Positions 20,611-28,999 of a DNA stretch of 64,000 nucleotides are shown here, piece after piece. The notes below the pieces were generated by a model, which was given only the letters and a program-made list of their open reading frames with translations, searched no databases and had not been told where the DNA came from. Every line of letters starts with the position of its first letter. The first letter of the stretch is position 1. A program made the translations under genes and the position numbers. Source of the stretch: Neobacillus cucumis (GTDB taxonomy: Bacteria > Bacillota > Bacilli > Bacillales_B > DSM-18226); assembly GCF_023715505.1 (NCBI RefSeq), contig NZ_JAMBOH010000012.1, positions 84,074 to 148,073 on the forward strand. The letters run 5' to 3'.

Positions 20611-20660
20611 AAAAAATAGCAGCTTCCTATAACTGTTAATCTAGGCAGCTGCTATTTTTT
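20611..20660. terminator. Bidirectional terminator
   Basis: Fourteen-base-pair perfect stem AAAAAATAGCAGCT (20611-20624) and its complement (20647-20660). The right arm overlaps the last codons of the pyruvate-kinase-like gene. Confidence 0.9.
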
Positions 20661-22196
20661 AAATACCCCAAACTGCGACGTTAAGTCAATCAGTGGTTTT
20701 TGTCTCGCCGGAATAACTTCCACTGTACGTAACAATTTAACAAGCATTTTCAATGCATCGACGACAAAAGGCCCTTTATTAAGCATGATGCAGTTTGCCC
20801 GACTCCCATAGGCAGCATCGGTTATCTCTGCACGCGCTGGGATTCCTTTTTTTGTGAGCTTCTCCAATACACCTGTTGCCCATATAACGGGTGTGTAGGC
20901 AGCCGAACAGATGGTTAAGATTTCATCCTGCACAAATGATAAGTTTTCAGGACCAACCTCAACAGTCAAGTCTCCCCTTGCCAGCATGATTCCGAATCTG
21001 TTAAAATGTAAACCTTCTAAAAGGATTCTCGCCAAATTATGGATAGCGTCCTTTGTTTCAATTTTGGCGACTACACCAATATCGGTTCGCTTAAGTATTT
21101 CTAATTCTTGACGTAATTTTCTTAAGTCAAGTGGGGAGTGGACAAAGGATATTCCTAAAATATCCGCGTGCTTAGTTATAAACGGTATGTCCGCTAAATC
21201 CTTTTCTGTTAATGCAGGGAGATTTAAGCTTAAGAGCGAATCAGGTAAATTTAGCCCCTTCCCTTCTTTTACCCTTACTGGTTTGGGCGCGGGTGAATGG
21301 ATTTCCACTTCTACAAATTCCTTGGTAACTTGTGATACGATACCATGGATTTTCCCATCATCGATAAAAATAGAATCGTTTACCCGAACATTTCGAAACG
21401 CTTTTTCCAGCGTTACCGGGACGCCGGCAGGAGTATCCTCCACTACCGAATGCCCCTCCGTATCGGAATTCAAATATAATCGCAGCCGATCCCCTTTACT
21501 CACATAAATAGGAGCATCAGGCAGCTTCCCAACTCGTACCTTGGGACCGGCTAAATCCATATAGATTTTACATTCGGTCTTTTGATACGTCCCTTCAATC
21601 CTTAGTTTTTTTTCAACATCCCGTATAGCATCAATTATTTGCTTCCATATTTCCGGATTATCATGAGCGCAATTGATTCTGGCAATATTCATTCCATTTA
21701 GTATTAGCTGTTCTATCTGGTTCGGATTGTTTAAGACTTTTGAATCTACCGTGACCATAATTGCTGGTTGATTCGGTTGCATTCTATTCCCGAAAAGTTC
21801 TTCTGTCCGCTTTTTTAAGATTTTTCTTGAATCATATGGAGTTGAAACCATTAGATTCTTTTGCGAAGGTAATGAGATATTTAAATAGGATAATATTTTT
21901 TCTAGTGTATATAAAAGGTGTGTAGGTGATTGAAAAAGATCTGCAAGTCCTTTTTCTTTTAGTTCTTGACGTATACCAAGTAAGTTTTGTTCACGAAATC
22001 CTAAATATGAAATTAAATTATCCCGACAGATTCTAGCATCGTCCTGGAACTCGTGATGATCCTCTGCATGATCACTTGCTTGAATGATTTGTTTATAGAT
22101 GCTTTCTATCCGTCTTGGTAATTCTCGTTGATTTAATGGGATTTGTGCCACATCCCCTTCACATCCTTGTATCCTAAACTTAAAAAGTTTTCCCAT
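20652..22196 (-). CDS. Pyruvate-kinase-like protein with N-terminal extension and no C-terminal domain
   Basis: 514 residues. Residues 1-140 are a helical extension not found in PykA. Residues 145-500 follow the pyruvate kinase barrel and B domain: MNIARINCAHDN (substrate Arg/Asn region), MDLAGPKVRVG, VVAKIETKDA (catalytic Lys), MLARGDLTVEVG (metal region) and ATGVLEKLTKKGIPARAE in place of ATQMLESM-x-PTRAE. The C-terminal regulatory domain and PEP-utiliser domain of Bacillus Pyk are missing. The core residues remain, so it may be catalytic, but it is clearly a divergent paralogue rather than the housekeeping enzyme. No good ribosome site is seen before the ATG. Confidence 0.85.
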   Translation of the reverse strand: MGKLFKFRIQGCEGDVAQIPLNQRELPRRIESIYKQIIQASDHAEDHHEFQDDARICRDNLISYLGFREQNLLGIRQELKEKGLADLFQSPTHLLYTLEKILSYLNISLPSQKNLMVSTPYDSRKILKKRTEELFGNRMQPNQPAIMVTVDSKVLNNPNQIEQLILNGMNIARINCAHDNPEIWKQIIDAIRDVEKKLRIEGTYQKTECKIYMDLAGPKVRVGKLPDAPIYVSKGDRLRLYLNSDTEGHSVVEDTPAGVPVTLEKAFRNVRVNDSIFIDDGKIHGIVSQVTKEFVEVEIHSPAPKPVRVKEGKGLNLPDSLLSLNLPALTEKDLADIPFITKHADILGISFVHSPLDLRKLRQELEILKRTDIGVVAKIETKDAIHNLARILLEGLHFNRFGIMLARGDLTVEVGPENLSFVQDEILTICSAAYTPVIWATGVLEKLTKKGIPARAEITDAAYGSRANCIMLNKGPFVVDALKMLVKLLRTVEVIPARQKPLIDLTSQFGVFKK

Positions 22197-22304: not shown

Positions 22305-23663
22305 TTATTTTACAAAAAAGAGTAAAAGCCATAGATACAAACTGATTAAGGTAAAGACCAAGGTTGGCGGTATGACAATCAGCGTTACTTTAATGTATTC
22401 GACCCAAGTAATCTTGATTTTGCTTTTCTTTAGTATATGCATCCATATTAGGGTCGCTAAGGTTCCAATCGGTAGAATAAGGGATCCAACATCACTTCCG
22501 ATTATATTTGCTAAATACACCGTTTTCATAATTAGCGGGTCTAGTCCCATTTCAGTTAAAGCTAAGGTTGAGACCATCAAGGCAGGATGGTTGTTAAAAA
22601 TGTTTGATAAAAATGCCGTGATAACACCCATTGTTAAACTCGCATGTAAGAAGCTGTCATTGACAAGGGGTTTTAGATTTTCAATTAAAAAAGCTGTTAA
22701 ACCGATATTGTGTAAGCCAAAAATAATCACGTACATACTGAAGGCAAAGATTAAAATGTGCCATGGTATTTTTTTTAGGACATCCTTTGGATTGACTTTT
22801 AAATACATCCATCTCCAAATCAATAAAATTAGTGATCCACAAACCGCTACTAGAGAGACCGAGATGCCGATAAAGGATGCTACAAATAGACTAATCCTAA
22901 CTATTAGGACGAAGATTAACATTTTAATCATAAGTTTCTTTTGTTGGTCAAACAGACTTTCTGAGTTTTGTTGGAGCGGATGAAATGGGCGGTTTTTTTG
23001 CAGCGGAATGGAGTATGAATGGAAGCGGATTTGGGCTGGAATATTCTTTTTGAAGACAAGGTACAGCAAATAGGATAAGAACAATAGACCGAGGACTCCT
23101 GGCACAAACATCATTTCGGTTTGCATGTAAAGGTCCATTCCAATAATTTTCAATGCAATAAGATTAACAATATTACTTACACCAATGGGGGCACTGGAGG
23201 CTGTGGCGATTAAAGCTCCGCTTAACAGAAATGGGATTTTTTGAGAATTTTTCAATTTTAAATTATTTAAAATTAAAATTAGGATCGGTGTAGTAATTAG
23301 AATACTTCCATCGTTATTAAAAAATAACGTCATTAAAAAGCATAACAGCAAGGTGTTCCAATATAAGCGGTAACCAGACCCCTTTGATAGTTTAAGCATT
23401 AGTGCCGCGGTCCAGCTGAAAAAGCCTATGCTCTCAAGAACAATTGCCATTACAATCGTGGCTATTATGGTAATTGCAGCCCCAGTTACCTTGGAACTGA
23501 TGTCAAGCAAGTCACCTGTTGACACACTACCGCTCAAGAAGACTAGAACAGCCCCAATCGCAGCTGGTATAGCTTCGTTCATATTTTTGGGACGGATGAA
23601 GATCATCACCATAGTTAGAATAAAAGCTGTTATAGTAACAATCACCGTCAAATGATGATACAT
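22305..23663 (-). CDS. ArsB/ion-transporter-superfamily membrane protein
   Basis: 452 residues from ATG 23663, with GAAGGGAG upstream; a TTG at 23750 would add a very basic 29-residue N-terminus without a ribosome site. About eleven membrane helices are evident. FFNNDGSILITTPI near residue 110 and SNIFNNHPALMVS near residue 365 are the two inverted Asn-containing hairpins of the ArsB/NhaD/SLC13 superfamily, and SAPIGVSNIVNLIA matches ArsB. B. subtilis YdfA is the probable counterpart. Arsenite export is possible, but no arsR or arsC is near, so the substrate is open. Confidence 0.85.
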   Translation of the reverse strand: MYHHLTVIVTITAFILTMVMIFIRPKNMNEAIPAAIGAVLVFLSGSVSTGDLLDISSKVTGAAITIIATIVMAIVLESIGFFSWTAALMLKLSKGSGYRLYWNTLLLCFLMTLFFNNDGSILITTPILILILNNLKLKNSQKIPFLLSGALIATASSAPIGVSNIVNLIALKIIGMDLYMQTEMMFVPGVLGLLFLSYLLYLVFKKNIPAQIRFHSYSIPLQKNRPFHPLQQNSESLFDQQKKLMIKMLIFVLIVRISLFVASFIGISVSLVAVCGSLILLIWRWMYLKVNPKDVLKKIPWHILIFAFSMYVIIFGLHNIGLTAFLIENLKPLVNDSFLHASLTMGVITAFLSNIFNNHPALMVSTLALTEMGLDPLIMKTVYLANIIGSDVGSLILPIGTLATLIWMHILKKSKIKITWVEYIKVTLIVIPPTLVFTLISLYLWLLLFFVK

Positions 23664-23946
23664 AAAAGTTAATTTACTCCCTTCATTTAGTTTCCTTCTG
23701 ATTTTTTTCCGTTTATTCTCTTCTTGTCCCTTGCCATATAGTACGTCCAAAATGAAGGCTTGTTCTAAACGAATATCCTGTAATTATACAAATCAGCATC
23801 TATCTAGATAAATATTTTTAAACTTAAATAGATTTTTGCCTAACAATTTTATATTTGGGCAAATAACTCTGCTTATATGATCTAGGTATTTATGTAGATT
23901 GGGTTAAATTGGGCTGCAGTTTGTTTTGAAGAACCTTAAAAAAATA

Positions 23947-23974
23947 AAACCGGCACTTGTTGAAGTACCGGCTT
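23947..23974 (-). terminator. Terminator of the collagen-like coat gene
   Basis: On the minus strand AAGCCGGTACTT pairs with AAGTGCCGGTTT through two G-T wobbles and is followed by ATTTTTTT. The wobbles would be mismatches on the other strand, so it is directional. Confidence 0.85.
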
Positions 23975-23985
23975 TATAAATCCAA

Positions 23986-24861
23986 TTATTTCTTACCTTT
24001 AGAGCCTTTAGGACGTTTAGCGCCTTTAGAGCCTTTAGGACGTTTAGCGCCTTTAGAGCCTTTGCTGCCGGAAGAGCCTTTGCTGCCGGAAGAGCCTTTG
24101 CTGCCGGAAGAACCTTTGCTGCCGGAAGAACCTTTGCTGCCGGAAGAACCTTTGCTGCCGGAAGAACCTTTGCTGCCGGAAGAGCCTTTGCTGCCGGAAG
24201 AACCTTTGCTGCCGGAAGAACCTTTGCTGCCGGAAGAGCCTTTGCTGCCGGAAGAACCATGGCTACCTGAAGATCCGTGGCTGCCTTTAGAACCATGGCT
24301 ACCTGAAGATCCGTGGCTGCCTTTAGAACCATGGCTGCCTGAAGATCCGTGGCTGCCTGAAGATCCGTGGCTGCCTTTAGAACCATGGCTACCTGAAGAT
24401 CCGTGGCTGCCTTTAGAACAATGGCTGCCTGAAGAACCCCAGCTGCCTGAAGAACCATGGCTGCCTGAAGATCCGTGGCTGCCTTTAGAACCATGGCTGC
24501 CTGAAGAACCCTTAGAGCCGCTAGAGCCTTTAGAACCGCTAGAGCCTTTAGTACCTTTAGAACCACTAGAGCCTTTAGTACCCTTAGAGCCGCTAGAGCC
24601 TTTAGAACCGCTGGAGCCTTTAGAACCTTTTGAACCGCTTGATCCTTTAGAACCGCTAGATCCTTTTGAACCACTTGAACCTTTTGAACCGCTTGAACCT
24701 TTTGAACCGCTTGAACCTTTTGAACCTTTTGTACCTTTTGTACCTTTAGGGTGTTTTGAGGGTTTTGGCCCTTTTTTAAATTCAACAGGGTTATTGATTA
24801 AAAATTCAATTACCCCGTTCTCTTGTGCTTGCGTAAGCAGATCTTCCATTACCATTTTCAT
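23986..24861 (-). CDS. Collagen-like Gly-X-Y repeat protein, probable CotG-type coat protein
   Basis: 291 residues, ATG with GGTGGAG seven bases upstream. A 40-residue non-repetitive head (MEDLLTQAQENGVIEFL and following) leads into about 80 uninterrupted Gly-X-Y triplets. They are built from Ser, Lys, His and Thr (KGSSGS, HGSSGS, HGSKGS units), with no Pro, and end in a basic KGAKRPKGSKGKK tail. The DNA is a tandem array of 18-base units. Its place beside cotH is that of cotG in B. subtilis, whose Ser/Lys-rich product is phosphorylated by CotH. A sigma-K-like promoter precedes it. Function as a coat structural substrate is inferred from context and composition. Confidence 0.75.
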   Translation of the reverse strand: MKMVMEDLLTQAQENGVIEFLINNPVEFKKGPKPSKHPKGTKGTKGSKGSSGSKGSSGSKGSSGSKGSSGSKGSSGSKGSKGSSGSKGSSGSKGTKGSSGSKGTKGSSGSKGSSGSKGSSGSHGSKGSHGSSGSHGSSGSWGSSGSHCSKGSHGSSGSHGSKGSHGSSGSHGSSGSHGSKGSHGSSGSHGSKGSHGSSGSHGSSGSKGSSGSKGSSGSKGSSGSKGSSGSKGSSGSKGSSGSKGSSGSKGSSGSKGSSGSKGSSGSKGSKGAKRPKGSKGAKRPKGSKGKK

Positions 24862-24903
24862 TTAAACACTCCACCACTTTCCAATATATTTATACTTCAA
24901 TGA

Positions 24904-24931
24904 TAATTTATGGGAGAAAGTGTGAAAGTGT
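24904..24931 (-). promoter_or_regulatory. Sigma-K-like promoter of the collagen-like gene
   Basis: Minus-strand reading gives ACAC (24931-24928), 15 bases, then CATAAATTA (24912-24904), an exact match to the sigma-K -10 pattern CATAnnnTA. It ends 42 bases before the start codon. Confidence 0.6.
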
Positions 24932-24982
24932 CATAGACAAAAGTTTATTTTTTTTAAAAAAACCAAGTAGCCCATAAACTGC

Positions 24983-25009
24983 ACCATTGCTATAGTCAGA
25001 GCATAGTAT
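24983..25009 (+). promoter_or_regulatory. Sigma-K-like promoter of cotH
   Basis: AC at 24983, 17 bases, then CATAGTAT at 25002-25009 (pattern CATAnnnT). A transcript from here would start near 25015, which favours the TTG at 25044 over the ATG at 25020 as the cotH start. Confidence 0.5.
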
Positions 25010-25043
25010 TCTAAAAAATATGTATTTAATAGGGGTTTTTAGA

Positions 25044-26132
25044 TTGCAAAAATATGAAATTTTTATCAATCCCAAGACGTTAAACCAGCTCAATAAAGAT
25101 ATCTGGATGGATGAACATGTTCAGGCAGTCCTCAAAATAGGAAACAATCAATATTCAATCGGCTTGGCATATCGTGGTAATGTGATCCGAAAGAAGAAAA
25201 AGAAATCCTATAACATTATTTTTCAAAAACCCTTTACCGTTAATGGCGCTCATGAAATCCATTTAAACGCAGAGTACAATGATATCTCACTTAGTCGTAA
25301 CAAGCTTTCATTTGATTTCTTTGATACAATTGGTGTCATTTCCCCCCACTCCAAGCATGTTCTTCTCTATATAAATGGTTTTTGTAAAGGTATTTATTTA
25401 GAAATCGAATCTTTCGATCAATTTCTTTTACAAAAAAGAAATTTACCAATGGGACCCATAATTTATGCAACTAACTATTACGCAAATTTCTCCCTTCTAT
25501 CACCAAAAAAGAAATTAAAAACGGATTTACTCGAAGGATATACCCTTAAATATGGTGATGAGGATGAATTGTCGTATTTAGAAGATTTAATCACAAAAAC
25601 TAACACACTTAAAAATGAGGAGTTTGAAGAAGAAATAACAAAGGTGCTAAATGTGGACCAGTATCTAACATGGTTAGCGGGAGTTGTTTGTACCCAAAAT
25701 TTTGATGGCTTTATCCATAATTATGCACTCTACCGAAATAGTGAAACCAACACTTTTGAAATAACTCCTTGGGATTATGATGGGACTTGGGGCAGAGATC
25801 TGCACGGGAAACGGCTTGATCATGACTTTGTACCTATAACTGGGTATAACACCTTGACCGGCAGACTACTTCACGTTCCTGATTTTAAAAAGAAATACTG
25901 TGAGATTCTTTCCTACATTTTAGAAAGCCAATTTACGGTTGAAACCCAAATAGGAATTATTGAAGGACTCTTTGAAACACTGAAGCCTCATATACAATTG
26001 GACCCTTATATTAAAAGAAAAGGCTATAGTCTTGATTCGGAAAAGGACGTTATCGTTAATTTCATTGAAAAACGAAATAGCTACTTAAAGCAGCAACTAA
26101 TTAAACTACAGGACGACAAAGTATATGGTTGA
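25044..26132 (+). CDS. cotH: Spore-coat protein kinase CotH
   Basis: 362 residues, aligning from memory along its whole length with B. subtilis CotH: DIWMDEHVQAV, IGLAYRGNVIR, HEIHLNAEYND, SRNKLSFDFF, the catalytic NFDGFIHNYALYRN near residue 225 and TPWDYDGTWGRDLHG near 245. Both aspartates required for kinase activity (in FDG and WDYD) are kept. CotH phosphorylates Ser in the CotB and CotG tails and organises the inner and outer coat. TTG 25044 is chosen because AGGGG lies upstream; ATG 25020 has no site. It is divergent from the collagen-like gene and followed by three CotB-type genes. Confidence 0.93.
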   Translation: MQKYEIFINPKTLNQLNKDIWMDEHVQAVLKIGNNQYSIGLAYRGNVIRKKKKKSYNIIFQKPFTVNGAHEIHLNAEYNDISLSRNKLSFDFFDTIGVISPHSKHVLLYINGFCKGIYLEIESFDQFLLQKRNLPMGPIIYATNYYANFSLLSPKKKLKTDLLEGYTLKYGDEDELSYLEDLITKTNTLKNEEFEEEITKVLNVDQYLTWLAGVVCTQNFDGFIHNYALYRNSETNTFEITPWDYDGTWGRDLHGKRLDHDFVPITGYNTLTGRLLHVPDFKKKYCEILSYILESQFTVETQIGIIEGLFETLKPHIQLDPYIKRKGYSLDSEKDVIVNFIEKRNSYLKQQLIKLQDDKVYG

Positions 26133-26151
26133 ATATCATATACTTTTTTTT
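26118..26151 (+). terminator. cotH terminator
   Basis: Stem AAAGTATATG / CATATACTTT enclosing the cotH stop codon, followed by T8. The CotB-type genes downstream must therefore have their own promoter or depend on read-through. Confidence 0.9.
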
Positions 26152-26264
26152 GCCTATTTTTTGCAAAAAACACGAAAAAGGGCCTCTTTATTAGTACAAC
26201 ATCATCCCGTGATACATATAGATGCAGTGTAAATGTTTATTTAATAAAGGAGGAAAAAACTTTT

Positions 26265-26780
26265 ATGGATAGAGAACTTATGAACATGCATGTTGGTAAA
26301 ACAATTAGGGTAGATCGTGGCGGTCCGGAGTCTAGAATCGGGAAATTACTTGCGGTATTTGAAGACTTCTTTGTACTCTTAACAGAAAAAGACGGCGTCG
26401 TTTACTACAAAACGAACCATGTCAGGAGTATCACAGAAAGTTCTAAAGATGCTATGAAATTGGGCTTGAAAATTCCTGAAAAATTAGATTTTAAGACTGC
26501 AGAAAATTTTCATAAACTTTTAGAGAGTATTAGATTTCAATGGGTAAAAATTAACCGCGATGGTGGTCCAGAGTCTTTAGAGGGTGTACTTAGTGATTCT
26601 AACAAACACTATGCCTCCCTCATCGTGAATGAAGAAGTGGTTCGTTTTTCATTAAAGCACATTCGAAATATTAGTTACGGCTTAATGGTGGATAAATCAG
26701 CAAACGATGATGAGGAGGAATCAAGTTCCAGCTCATCCAGCAGCAGCCACAATTCCGATAACAACGAAGATAACGATTAA
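26265..26780 (+). CDS. cotB: CotB-type spore-coat protein (short)
   Basis: 171 residues, GGAGG upstream. Two Sm-like modules are seen: MHVGKTIRVDRGGPESRIGKLLAV at residues 8-31 and WVKINRDGGPESLEGVLSD near residue 90, the RGGPES signature of B. subtilis CotB. It ends in an acidic and serine tract (residues 150-171, with nine consecutive Ser). The long Ser/Lys tail of B. subtilis CotB is thus reduced to a short Ser run, which could still be a CotH target. Located at the spore outer coat by homology. A CATA-type -10 near 26215 is a weak sigma-K candidate. Confidence 0.9.
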   Translation: MDRELMNMHVGKTIRVDRGGPESRIGKLLAVFEDFFVLLTEKDGVVYYKTNHVRSITESSKDAMKLGLKIPEKLDFKTAENFHKLLESIRFQWVKINRDGGPESLEGVLSDSNKHYASLIVNEEVVRFSLKHIRNISYGLMVDKSANDDEEESSSSSSSSSHNSDNNEDND

Positions 26781-26787
26781 CCATTAC

Positions 26788-26812
26788 GTCGCTTCTCCAA
26801 AAGAGAAGCGAC
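26788..26812. other. Intercistronic hairpin without T tract
   Basis: Ten-base-pair perfect stem GTCGCTTCTC / GAGAAGCGAC between the first two CotB-type genes. No T run follows, so RNA stabilisation or processing is more likely than termination. Confidence 0.6.
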
Positions 26813-26838
26813 CCATTATCTCTTAAGGAGGATGAAAC

Positions 26839-28137
26839 ATGGGGTTAGAAAAATTTTCAGCCGCATTGGATTTACTAAAAGGGTTTCAGGTAAATCTTTA
26901 TGTGGGTGAAGACATATTTAAAGGAAAATTGATTGGCGTAGAAACAGACCATGTGGTACTAGAAACTGAAAAGAAATATATTTTTTATTATAACATTGAT
27001 AAAATTCAAGCGATTACTAAGAATACAAAGCAATTTCAGCCGGAGAAAGCAACTGTAGAATTCCAAAAAACACAAAGCTTAATGGAGCTTTTACACTCCT
27101 TCCAATATTCTTGGGTAACGATCTTGAGTATTAATAAACAAAGCTTTTACGGTGTACTAAGTGAGATTGATGAAGATTTTGTTACGTTAATTAATGGCGA
27201 AGAGCGAATCTTAATCAAAGTCACACATATTTCCAATATTTTAAAAGGTTTTATAAAAGAAAAACTAATGAAAAAAGAACAGAAAAAAACAGAAAGTAAA
27301 AATGAGAATAAGAATCAGAACAAAGAAACAAAAGAGTCTAACGAAACAAAGAATTCCAAAGAAACAAAAGAGTCTAACGAAACAAAGAATTCTAAAGAAA
27401 CAAAGGAGTCTAACGAAACAAAGAATTCTAAAGAGACAAAACAAACGAATGAATCAAAAAAGAAAGACGACGATGGTAGCTCTGGTAAAGCACCAAAGGA
27501 ATATACAGCAGAGACAATTAAGAATACTACGGGTAAGAGTACTACTAGTGAAAAGAAATCTAAATCCACATCAAACAAACAAACTGAAGTTGAAGCCACA
27601 GATGTTATGGAGCCAAACTACATGAAGGTTTGGTCTAATCCGATCAAAACAGAACCAGTTATAAAGGATGACCAATCTTCAAAAGTAAAAATGCAGTCTG
27701 ATGAGTTTGAACCAATTCAAGTATTTAATAAAGAGATGAAAAAACAAAAAAATGAAACGATTCCAACTGAGAATAAAAAAGACGAATCGACGGGTTCTAA
27801 ATCCAATGATATAAAATCGAATAAAAACACAGAAAAGACTAGCAGGCAGACATCCGCGGTATCTTCATCATCTTCATCTAAAAAAGAGATGAAAAACGAA
27901 AAACCTCAAGAAACCATAACAGTCTCAAAGCCTGTTGTCACACAATATGCTGCACCTAAGAAATCAGAAACTACCTCAAATGAGCAAGTCAATAACGATA
28001 CTAAAAATGTATGGAAACAAAAAGACCAAGAAACTAGAGCCTTCCGCTTTACCGGTGAACCCGTTCCCCGTAATCAAGAAAGAACTTTCCCGTTTGCTGG
28101 ATGGCCAAGGAGCAACCAACGAAGCTTTAGGTTTTAA
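26839..28137 (+). CDS. CotB-like spore-coat protein with long disordered tail
   Basis: 432 residues, GGAGG eight bases before the ATG. Residues 1-140 hold two CotB-type modules (FQVNLYVGEDIFKGKLIGV and WVTILSINKQSFYGVLSEID) although RGGPES itself is lost. From residue 145 the protein is low complexity, rich in Lys, Glu, Asn, Ser and Thr, with three copies of a 12-residue KETKESNETKNS repeat and a serine run near 340. The C-terminus is aromatic and basic (RTFPFAGWPRSNQRSFRF), like the hydrophobic end of B. subtilis CotB. The Ser-rich tail is a plausible CotH substrate. Likely cotranscribed with the preceding gene, 58 bases upstream. Confidence 0.82.
   Translation: MGLEKFSAALDLLKGFQVNLYVGEDIFKGKLIGVETDHVVLETEKKYIFYYNIDKIQAITKNTKQFQPEKATVEFQKTQSLMELLHSFQYSWVTILSINKQSFYGVLSEIDEDFVTLINGEERILIKVTHISNILKGFIKEKLMKKEQKKTESKNENKNQNKETKESNETKNSKETKESNETKNSKETKESNETKNSKETKQTNESKKKDDDGSSGKAPKEYTAETIKNTTGKSTTSEKKSKSTSNKQTEVEATDVMEPNYMKVWSNPIKTEPVIKDDQSSKVKMQSDEFEPIQVFNKEMKKQKNETIPTENKKDESTGSKSNDIKSNKNTEKTSRQTSAVSSSSSSKKEMKNEKPQETITVSKPVVTQYAAPKKSETTSNEQVNNDTKNVWKQKDQETRAFRFTGEPVPRNQERTFPFAGWPRSNQRSFRF
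27322..27429 (+). repeat. Three tandem 36-base repeats inside the CotB-like gene
   Basis: Three head-to-tail copies, 27322-27357, 27358-27393 and 27394-27429, differing at two or three positions; each encodes 12 residues. Such arrays expand and contract by slippage. Confidence 0.9.
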
Positions 28138-28249
28138 TACCGCAATTTTCACAATGAAGAATACTCTATTGTTCTATCAAACAAAGCATTTTAACGGCAG
28201 CCATGTCCCCTTACAAATATGAGCCGGGCAAATCGGATTAATTATTTAG

Positions 28250-28999
28250 ATGCATAAAGAAACGAAACGATCATTTCAGCCCCTCTCTATTTGTGAATGG
28301 AAATACTTAGGAAAGGATGTGAGTAAGTCCGTGAAATTGAAAGAAAATATCGGCAAATATATTAAACTTGAAATATCCGGTAAGAAATATATATATGGGC
28401 TTTTAGTGGATATCGGAAGTGATTTATGGGTTATATTTAATGGAACTGACTATCTTTATATTCCAACTATTCATATTCAAAATTGGCAGTTCATGAAACA
28501 ATATGAAATTGATGAAATCACCTTTAATGACGAACCAACACCCATTTATAATCATAATGAAGAGATCTCGTTACGGAAAACCCTTACGGCAGCAAAAGGA
28601 ATTTTTACAGAAATCTATGTCACGAGTAACCAAGCCTTACATGGTTATATCATTAGTATCATGAATAATTATTTTGTCTTCTACTCGCCGATATACAAAA
28701 CCATGTTTATCTCGTTAAACCATTTAAAATGGTTAATCCCGTATACCAACAATCAACGTCCTTATGGATTAAGCAACGCCAGCCTTCCAGTAAGTCCAAG
28801 CAACCTAACGTTTGCCAGGTCCTTTGAAGTTCAAATTGAAAAATTACTTGGAGAATTAATCGTGTTTAATATCGGGGAGAATGAAAATGTGATCGGCAAG
28901 ATTCAATCCATTAAGAATAATTTTGTTGAATTGATTAGTGCTAAAGAAGACCCAATCTATATCAACTTCCAGCATATCAAAACAATTCATATGACGTAG
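28250..28999 (+). CDS. CotB-like protein with three degenerate modules
   Basis: 249 residues from ATG 28250, which lacks a ribosome site; GTG codons at 28319 and 28331 with GGAAAGGA upstream are alternatives and would remove 23-27 residues. Modules resembling CotB recur: IGKYIKLEISGKKYIYGLLVD near residue 34, a middle copy near 125 (IYVTSNQALHGYIISI) and ELIVFNIGENENVIGKIQSI near 205, each ending in a HIK or HLK strand. There is no Ser/Lys tail, so it would not obviously be a CotH substrate. Placement after two CotB-type genes suggests duplication and divergence. Coat function is inferred. Confidence 0.72.
   Translation: MHKETKRSFQPLSICEWKYLGKDVSKSVKLKENIGKYIKLEISGKKYIYGLLVDIGSDLWVIFNGTDYLYIPTIHIQNWQFMKQYEIDEITFNDEPTPIYNHNEEISLRKTLTAAKGIFTEIYVTSNQALHGYIISIMNNYFVFYSPIYKTMFISLNHLKWLIPYTNNQRPYGLSNASLPVSPSNLTFARSFEVQIEKLLGELIVFNIGENENVIGKIQSIKNNFVELISAKEDPIYINFQHIKTIHMT

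Follow-up and report, generated by a model that had tools for sequence, protein, structure and literature searches.

A candidate CotH phospho-coat cluster in Neobacillus cucumis with a Gly-Ser-Y repeat protein that shares its N-terminal module with B. subtilis-type CotG-like proteins

The window analysed here is a stretch of 64,000 nucleotides from Neobacillus cucumis (contig NZ_JAMBOH010000012.1), and our subject is a spore coat gene cluster within it that is built around cotH, the gene of a coat protein kinase. A gene for a CotG-like repeat protein lies on the minus strand, and divergent from it stand cotH and three CotB-type genes, called B1, B2 and B3 in what follows, in this order and all on the plus strand; 158 bp separate the start of the CotG-like gene from the ATG of the cotH open reading frame (ORF). 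The genes and their internal features are as follows, in window coordinates (aa, amino acids; HMM, hidden Markov model; TRF, Tandem Repeats Finder).

23986-24861, minus strand: CotG-like gene in the CotG position, 291 aa, with matches to Pfam Collagen and to the N-terminal HMM
24055-24747, minus strand: tandem repeat region, mainly of 18-bp units coding for Gly-Ser-Y triplets (TRF, triplet counts)
24781-24861, minus strand: conserved module at the N-terminus of the CotG-like protein, about 27 residues (HMM searches)
25020-26132, plus strand: cotH ORF (PF08757, PDB 5jd9, alignment of starts); the likelier start, TTG 25044, gives 362 aa
26265-26780, plus strand: B1, short CotB-type protein with two predicted small barrels, RGGPES and a short Ser tract
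26839-28137, plus strand: B2, CotB-type protein with barrel domains homologous to B1 and a long Lys/Glu/Ser/Thr tail
27321-27441, plus strand: 36-bp tandem repeat in the B2 tail (TRF)
28319-28999, plus strand: B3, tailless, three predicted small barrels (low confidence); its ORF reaches back to 28250

The kinase matches PF08757 over the full profile (positions 1-322 of 322, E 3.3e-72) and aligns almost end to end with the solved spore coat protein H (5jd9/5jda; E 1.4e-114). Its identity to the CotH of both N. drentensis JC05 and Bacillus sp. ISL-18 is 92%. Its FDGF and WDYD motifs, which we take to be the catalytic ones, align with those of 5jd9, in agreement with the original prediction that CotH is kept with both catalytic aspartates. 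Translation probably starts at TTG 25044 and not at ATG 25020, because relatives align from the former, which also has a Shine-Dalgarno-like AGGGG.

The conservation of the cluster was followed through nine loci from a named collection and two surveys. The family survey (151 genomes) found CotH in 64 genomes and the type of the window ("type I", 63-92% identity) in 20, ten of which carry a second CotH, of type II; most of the other matches stood at 47-55% identity and nine were remote (E 8e-17 to 3e-7). At E<=1e-95 it gave 70 CotH places: 66 of these were fetched, two were in the set already, and G038 and G141 were left out. The class survey (398 genomes) gave matches in 103, of which about half had none but remote ones, and all its 48 places at E<=1e-55 other than G001 were read. 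B1, B2 and B3 are present in order at all 28 type I loci (the window, L001-L024 and L102-L104, with L008 and L015 on the same contig), and all 20 genomes with a type I CotH keep the three CotB-type genes. A CotG-like ORF is found at 23 of the 28 loci, and in the other five (L005, L008, L015, L024, L102) the contig ends a short way upstream of cotH. Within one otherwise complete cluster (L020, genome G117), B1 is a weak, remnant-like ORF of 90 aa. The survey of cotH neighbourhoods thus bears out the synteny of the three CotB-type genes; that the set is lineage-specific, as originally proposed, does not hold, as 11 further loci outside the window's CotH type have three members as well.

The evidence that joins this cluster to the known CotG systems comes from the N-terminus of the CotG-like protein. 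We defined the CotG position as a divergent start within 900 bp of cotH, which applies to 228 of the 4775 ORFs (4.8%) at 98 loci, and searched the first 80 residues of all these ORFs iteratively with HMMs. A type I model, seeded with 18 distinct N-termini from 21 type I proteins (the N-terminus of the window protein, E 4.4e-20, is itself a seed sequence), ended with 35 matches at E<=1, every one in the CotG position: the 21 seed loci and 14 others, 6 of the latter at E<=0.01. Reversed decoys gave 0-2 matches per round. A second model, seeded with three N-termini of B. subtilis type, gave 33 matches at E<=0.01, of which 31 lie in the CotG position and two are second CotG-like genes (L037, L049), and five more at E 0.01-1, three in position and two being ordinary proteins elsewhere; 34 of these 38 matches at E<=1 are the ORF divergent from cotH, against 0-1 matches for reversed decoys. 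The label "B. subtilis-type" refers to what we take to be the CotG N-terminus of that species, and it is left as our assumption because a protein search with the CotG N-terminus of L060 returned nothing at E<=0.001. A GSK-repeat protein (L059) links the two sets, as each seed recovered it (E 1e-11 and 2e-5). Loci without a match at E<=1 numbered 63 of 98 for the type I model and 64 of 98 for the B. subtilis-type model, and the class-level loci with a CotH less than 45% identical (L082, L084-L097) had no match in the CotG position.

The frozen models were then run on 26 unused loci (895 ORFs, 60 in the CotG position). The B. subtilis-type model made 19 matches at E<=0.01, 17 in position and two to second CotG-like genes (L099, L100), with two more at E 0.01-1, both in position; all six matches of the type I model at E<=1 were in position, L103 and L104 being type I themselves. 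In total 21 of the 26 loci were matched, the misses being L102 and L105, which are cut at contig ends, and L116, L118 and L120. On this profile evidence the CotG-like N-termini are shown to be homologous across window-type and B. subtilis-type loci, by a transitive case that runs via intermediates, since type I and type II N-terminal profiles match only weakly when compared directly (hhalign P 3e-4, probability 40%). Besides that comparison, three points weigh against the homology: the first type I round at E<=0.01 gains only three ORFs beyond the 21 seed loci; the 26 unused loci are not independent by descent, some coming from genomes already used or from close relatives; and a C-terminal W..GN.W-like element that is common among the B. 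subtilis-seed matches (23 of 33, by a loose pattern) is found in none of the 21 type I proteins. One might ask whether a short amphipathic helix followed by Pro was selected independently in each group, as the similar part spans only about 25 residues, the direct signal is weak and the published view, in the accessible part of PMC9765600, is that of a family without homologous primary sequence. We consider such convergence improbable: iterative searches that used sequence only, from two independent seeds and on unused loci, land nearly always in the position divergent from cotH, intermediates join the sets, and non-seed matches share position, orientation and mostly repeat architecture.

Two further groups of genes carry the module. 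Four loci have a second CotG-like gene with it, 1.1-4.5 kb from the type II cotH start on the downstream side (L037 8436-9098, L049 10392-11309, L099 3962-4939, L100 6128-7231), and three loci have CotG-like ORFs of 69-79 aa made up of the module and a Gly-Ser dipeptide repeat (L121 4608-4817, L122 4574-4813, L123 6218-6445).

Beyond the module the window protein is repeats up to its C-terminus. Gly-X-Y triplets number 77 (79% of the protein), with a longest uninterrupted run of 41, and X is Ser in 72 of them; their Gly codons are GGT (34), GGC (35) and GGA (8), three of the four Gly codons that occur across the set. Among 21 type I CotG-like proteins, with Gly-X-Y counted in runs of five or more, there are 1646 triplets, and X is Ser in 1356 (82%). 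These Ser are coded by TCN (645) and AGY (711), classes that no single base change connects, whereas Y is K (638), R (335), S (165), H (156), G (129), Q (87), E (29) or another residue, including C. From these counts the Gly and Ser of the ladder look constrained and Y looks free. Repeat homogenisation could, on the other hand, mix Ser codons without strong selection, and in four proteins (L013, L019, L021, L022) a single class accounts for at least about 90% of the Ser codons.

The Pfam Collagen match of the window protein (E 3.6e-39) and the length of the uninterrupted runs, up to 98 triplets in L001, would also fit a true collagen-like fibre like the BclA-type exosporium glycoproteins, forming a triple helix at the spore surface and adjoining cotH for reasons incidental to phosphorylation; GPKGRKGPKGPKG-like blocks occur in some relatives. 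The Gly-X-Y periodicity is indeed shared with that type. The window protein differs from it, however, in having only 6 Pro in 291 residues, with Pro-rich triplets absent over most of its length, in the near-fixation of Ser at X, in repeats that run to the end without a globular trimerisation domain, and in a CotG-type N-terminus; moreover, runs of at least five triplets cover just 46-48% of L006 and L007, and the same module heads homologues with non-Gly repeats such as RRST. We therefore hold a collagen fibre to be rather unlikely. With Ser mostly fixed at X and hardly any Pro, the repeat is better read as a putative serine phospho-acceptor ladder for CotH. The Gly-X-Y protein that had been predicted for the CotG position is thus there, and "collagen-like" describes its periodicity, its composition fitting a serine ladder better. 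The best NCBIfam matches (SclA/SclB, Lcl and HisXaaSer) were set aside as matches of composition: three are far below their cut-offs, and HisXaaSer_A4 (95.9 bits, cut-off 55) covers the repeat alone. The net charge of the window protein is +44; in L013 (6252-6839) a CotG-like protein with acidic Gly-Ser-Glu/Gln/Tyr repeats has a net charge of -22 against the usual positive one, so neutralisation of charge by phosphorylation cannot be universal.

The three genes downstream of cotH are of unequal kinship. B1 carries RGGPES, a second DGGPES and a short Ser tract, and its HMM scores the B. subtilis-type CotB of L060 and L061 at 171 and 166 bits. B2, which has a tail of Lys, Glu, Ser, Thr and Asn behind its barrel domains, is clearly homologous to B1 (hhalign E 3.6e-15). 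Profile comparison of B3 is weak with B1 (E 9e-5, 60% probability; 17-31 bits for the B1 model on B3 ORFs) and weaker with B2 (E 0.018, 2.5% probability), and a separate precomputed Pfam entry, PF27152, is given for its 120 listed relatives; B3 is best described as a weakly related, distant family separate from B1 and B2, and presumably as a YwrJ-type gene. The protein is 99% identical to one listed under N. bataviensis, and it probably starts at GTG 28319, because conservation among relatives begins there and a Shine-Dalgarno-like sequence is present. The predicted distribution of CotB-type proteins over three genes, one with RGGPES and a short Ser tract, one long-tailed and one tailless, is thus confirmed, and of the expected profile similarity to CotB for the products of the second and third genes, B2 has it in full and B3 only weakly. 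Full-length AlphaFold models from 10-row alignments were poor (mean pLDDT 58 for B1 and 43 for B3, the latter with three barrel-like repeats at low confidence). The first B1 barrel, the only part used in the fold search, is predicted to be Sm-like, with pLDDT 70-80 in that domain; Foldseek with B1 gave no match at E<=0.001, and when the PDB was searched with sequence profiles of B1 and B3 no convincing match appeared, the best for B1 being 1ljo (E 0.016). Tandem barrels in one chain would set B1 apart from the Sm/LSm/Hfq fold.

Should these proteins have nothing to do with CotH phosphorylation, the CotG-like protein would be the sole substrate and the CotB-type genes would adjoin as coat genes of shared timing. 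The short Ser tract of B1, the lack of a tail in B3, a promoter-like block of their own and the nine genomes described below, where a second CotH-CotG pair has no CotB-type gene in the fetched stretch, would all agree with this. We nevertheless find it doubtful, as a CotB-type gene lies within -6 to +7 kb of cotH at 65 of the 98 loci and as CotH phosphorylates the Ser-rich tail of B. subtilis CotB, according to the accessible text of PMC7821199. For the assignment of CotB labels a length limit (>240 aa) was combined with HMM scores; of the 33 loci at which no CotB-type gene was seen, some are truncated where their contig stops, and L078 and L079 resemble two copies from a single genome.

A scan with the SigK consensus found a promoter-like block in front of each of cotG, cotH and B1, and a hairpin lies behind the CotG-like gene.

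23944-23977, minus strand: terminator-like hairpin of the CotG-like gene, a 15-pair stem and a T run, in a region overall without clear excess over shuffles
24904-24932, minus strand: SigK-like promoter match for cotG, GACA-16-CATAAATTA (script scan)
24982-25010, plus strand: SigK-like promoter match for cotH, CACC-16-CATAGTATT (script scan, alignment)
26195-26223, plus strand: SigK-like promoter match for B1-B2-B3, TACA-16-CATATAGAT, the last two bases of the -10 off consensus

Among 21 aligned loci, the cotG block keeps CATA in its -10, its -35 matching in the window and not being conserved, and the cotH block has AC and CATA in all 21 and CAC in 20 (AAC in L011). The B1 block, TACA-16-CATATA, is kept in an alignment of 23 loci, with a one-base departure in L016 (AATATA in the -10). 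The conserved block beside cotH differs from the arrangement in B. subtilis, where cotH has its promoter more than 800 bp upstream, on the far side of cotG (PMC4130616, accessible part). A SigK scan of the plus strand from 23700 to 26270 for such a distal promoter gave three loose matches with one mismatch (24977, 24982, 26112), none of them downstream of cotG, and a sigma-70 scan gave no excess over shuffles.

Further likenesses and differences place the cluster among known systems. As in B. subtilis cotB/cotH/cotG, a CotH kinase stands beside a divergent, repeat-rich CotG and a CotB-type gene in the direction of cotH, and the B. subtilis-type loci L060 and L061 also have a B3-type gene after CotB. 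B. subtilis has, in contrast, one tailed CotB where the window has B1 and B2, and a CotG with RSHKKS-type repeats and a C-terminal W..GN.W, so that the window protein, with its Gly-Ser-Y repeats, is not a strict orthologue. It resembles the modular CotG-like proteins (Saggese et al. 2016, as described in the accessible parts of PMC9765600 and PMC7821199) in chromosomal place, modularity, central tandem repeats and mostly positive charge, and departs from them in its Gly-Ser-Y ladder and in a homologous N-terminal module. The B. cereus group likewise has a phosphorylated repeat protein, ExsB, and more than one CotB (PMC7821199, accessible part); ExsB is phosphorylated on Thr, unlike the Ser proposed here, and no surveyed locus was identified as B. 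cereus group. The architecture can thus no longer be called undescribed, as the original prediction had it: the parts of PMC9765600 and PMC7821199 at hand already report non-orthologous CotG-like repeat proteins at this place in many bacilli, and the latter two CotB paralogues in the B. cereus group. The conserved module and the second CotH system are additions to that prediction. Among the literature matches listed we found no publication that describes a conserved N-terminus of the CotG family, a CotG with Gly-Ser-Y repeats, a CotB of Sm-like fold or a Neobacillus with two CotH, most subscription papers being outside our reach.

We think it likely that the cluster represents a phospho-coat module belonging to a second ("type I") lineage of CotH, with a CotG-like N-terminal docking end and an exchangeable Ser ladder. 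CotH would be made in the mother cell, late in sporulation, together with its divergent CotG-like substrate and the barrel-type coat proteins B1, B2 and B3. The module of about 27 residues would be the conserved docking end for CotB, CotH or both, and the remainder of the protein an exchangeable ladder offering CotH a serine every third residue. Phosphorylation would offset the positive charge, whereupon the CotG-like protein would assemble with the barrel proteins into the outer coat; the Ser/Thr/Lys/Glu tail of B2 may replace the SKR tail of B. subtilis CotB, with B1 and B3 as untailed structural partners. By analogy with B. subtilis we infer docking, phosphorylation of ladder and B2 tail, charge balance and coat location, whereas gene content and order, their conservation, the homology of the module, the Gly/Ser constraint and the promoter-like blocks are read from the loci themselves. 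In B. subtilis CotG the N and C termini, and not the repeats, which are replaceable, serve CotB maturation (PMC9765600, accessible part), as would be predicted from conserved ends and free repeats.

The type II CotH of the ten two-CotH genomes has a CotG-like ORF in place at all ten loci (L033, L035, L040, L046, L048, L049, L098-L101). No CotB-type gene lies beside type II cotH in the nine informative genomes, where the stretch read covers about 5-7 kb to each side of the gene; in L048 the contig stops about 250 bp behind cotH. A CotH tree of 91 rows was drawn from 124 loci, with 33 near-duplicate, short or distant rows left out (another tree used 48 of 50 rows). In it the type I rows group with L025, L028, L030, L050, L052 and L054 (100/98), of which L050, L052 and L054 (a tailed and a short gene, B3 not within reach) carry the label "0B", and the type II rows of two-CotH genomes are nested within other genomes whose gene order is CotG-CotH-CotB-B3. 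As the tree has a midpoint root, the direction of change is a matter of interpretation, and type I may be an old duplicate or an acquired gene. We are evenly balanced on a wider reading, in which the CotG-like proteins across Bacilli would be one homologous family, with a short N-terminal docking module and a freely swapped repeat ladder, many spores of the window kind would run two CotH kinases, each paired with a CotG-like substrate of its own (Gly-Ser-Y or Arg/Ser/Thr), and the kinase that other bacilli have as well would have lost the CotB-type genes beside it to the other cluster.

Just beyond the CotG-like gene lies an ArsB-type transporter (22305-23750, minus strand; PF02040, E 2.5e-73). 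As an ArsB-like gene, ywrK, presumably sits near ywrJ-cotB in B. subtilis, the neighbourhood may be old. Further out, 20652-22196 (minus strand) encodes a 514-aa protein in which residues 147-472 match a pyruvate kinase barrel and the N-terminal part has no assignment, and a DCC1-like protein is encoded after B3.

CotG-like proteins, grouped so far by position and repetitiveness, gain a sequence hallmark that can be searched for and mutated. This hallmark leads to a testable split, in which the conserved end would dock and the ladder would be an adjustable carrier of phosphate, and the genomes with two CotH offer a natural experiment on the pairing of kinase and substrate in the spore coat.

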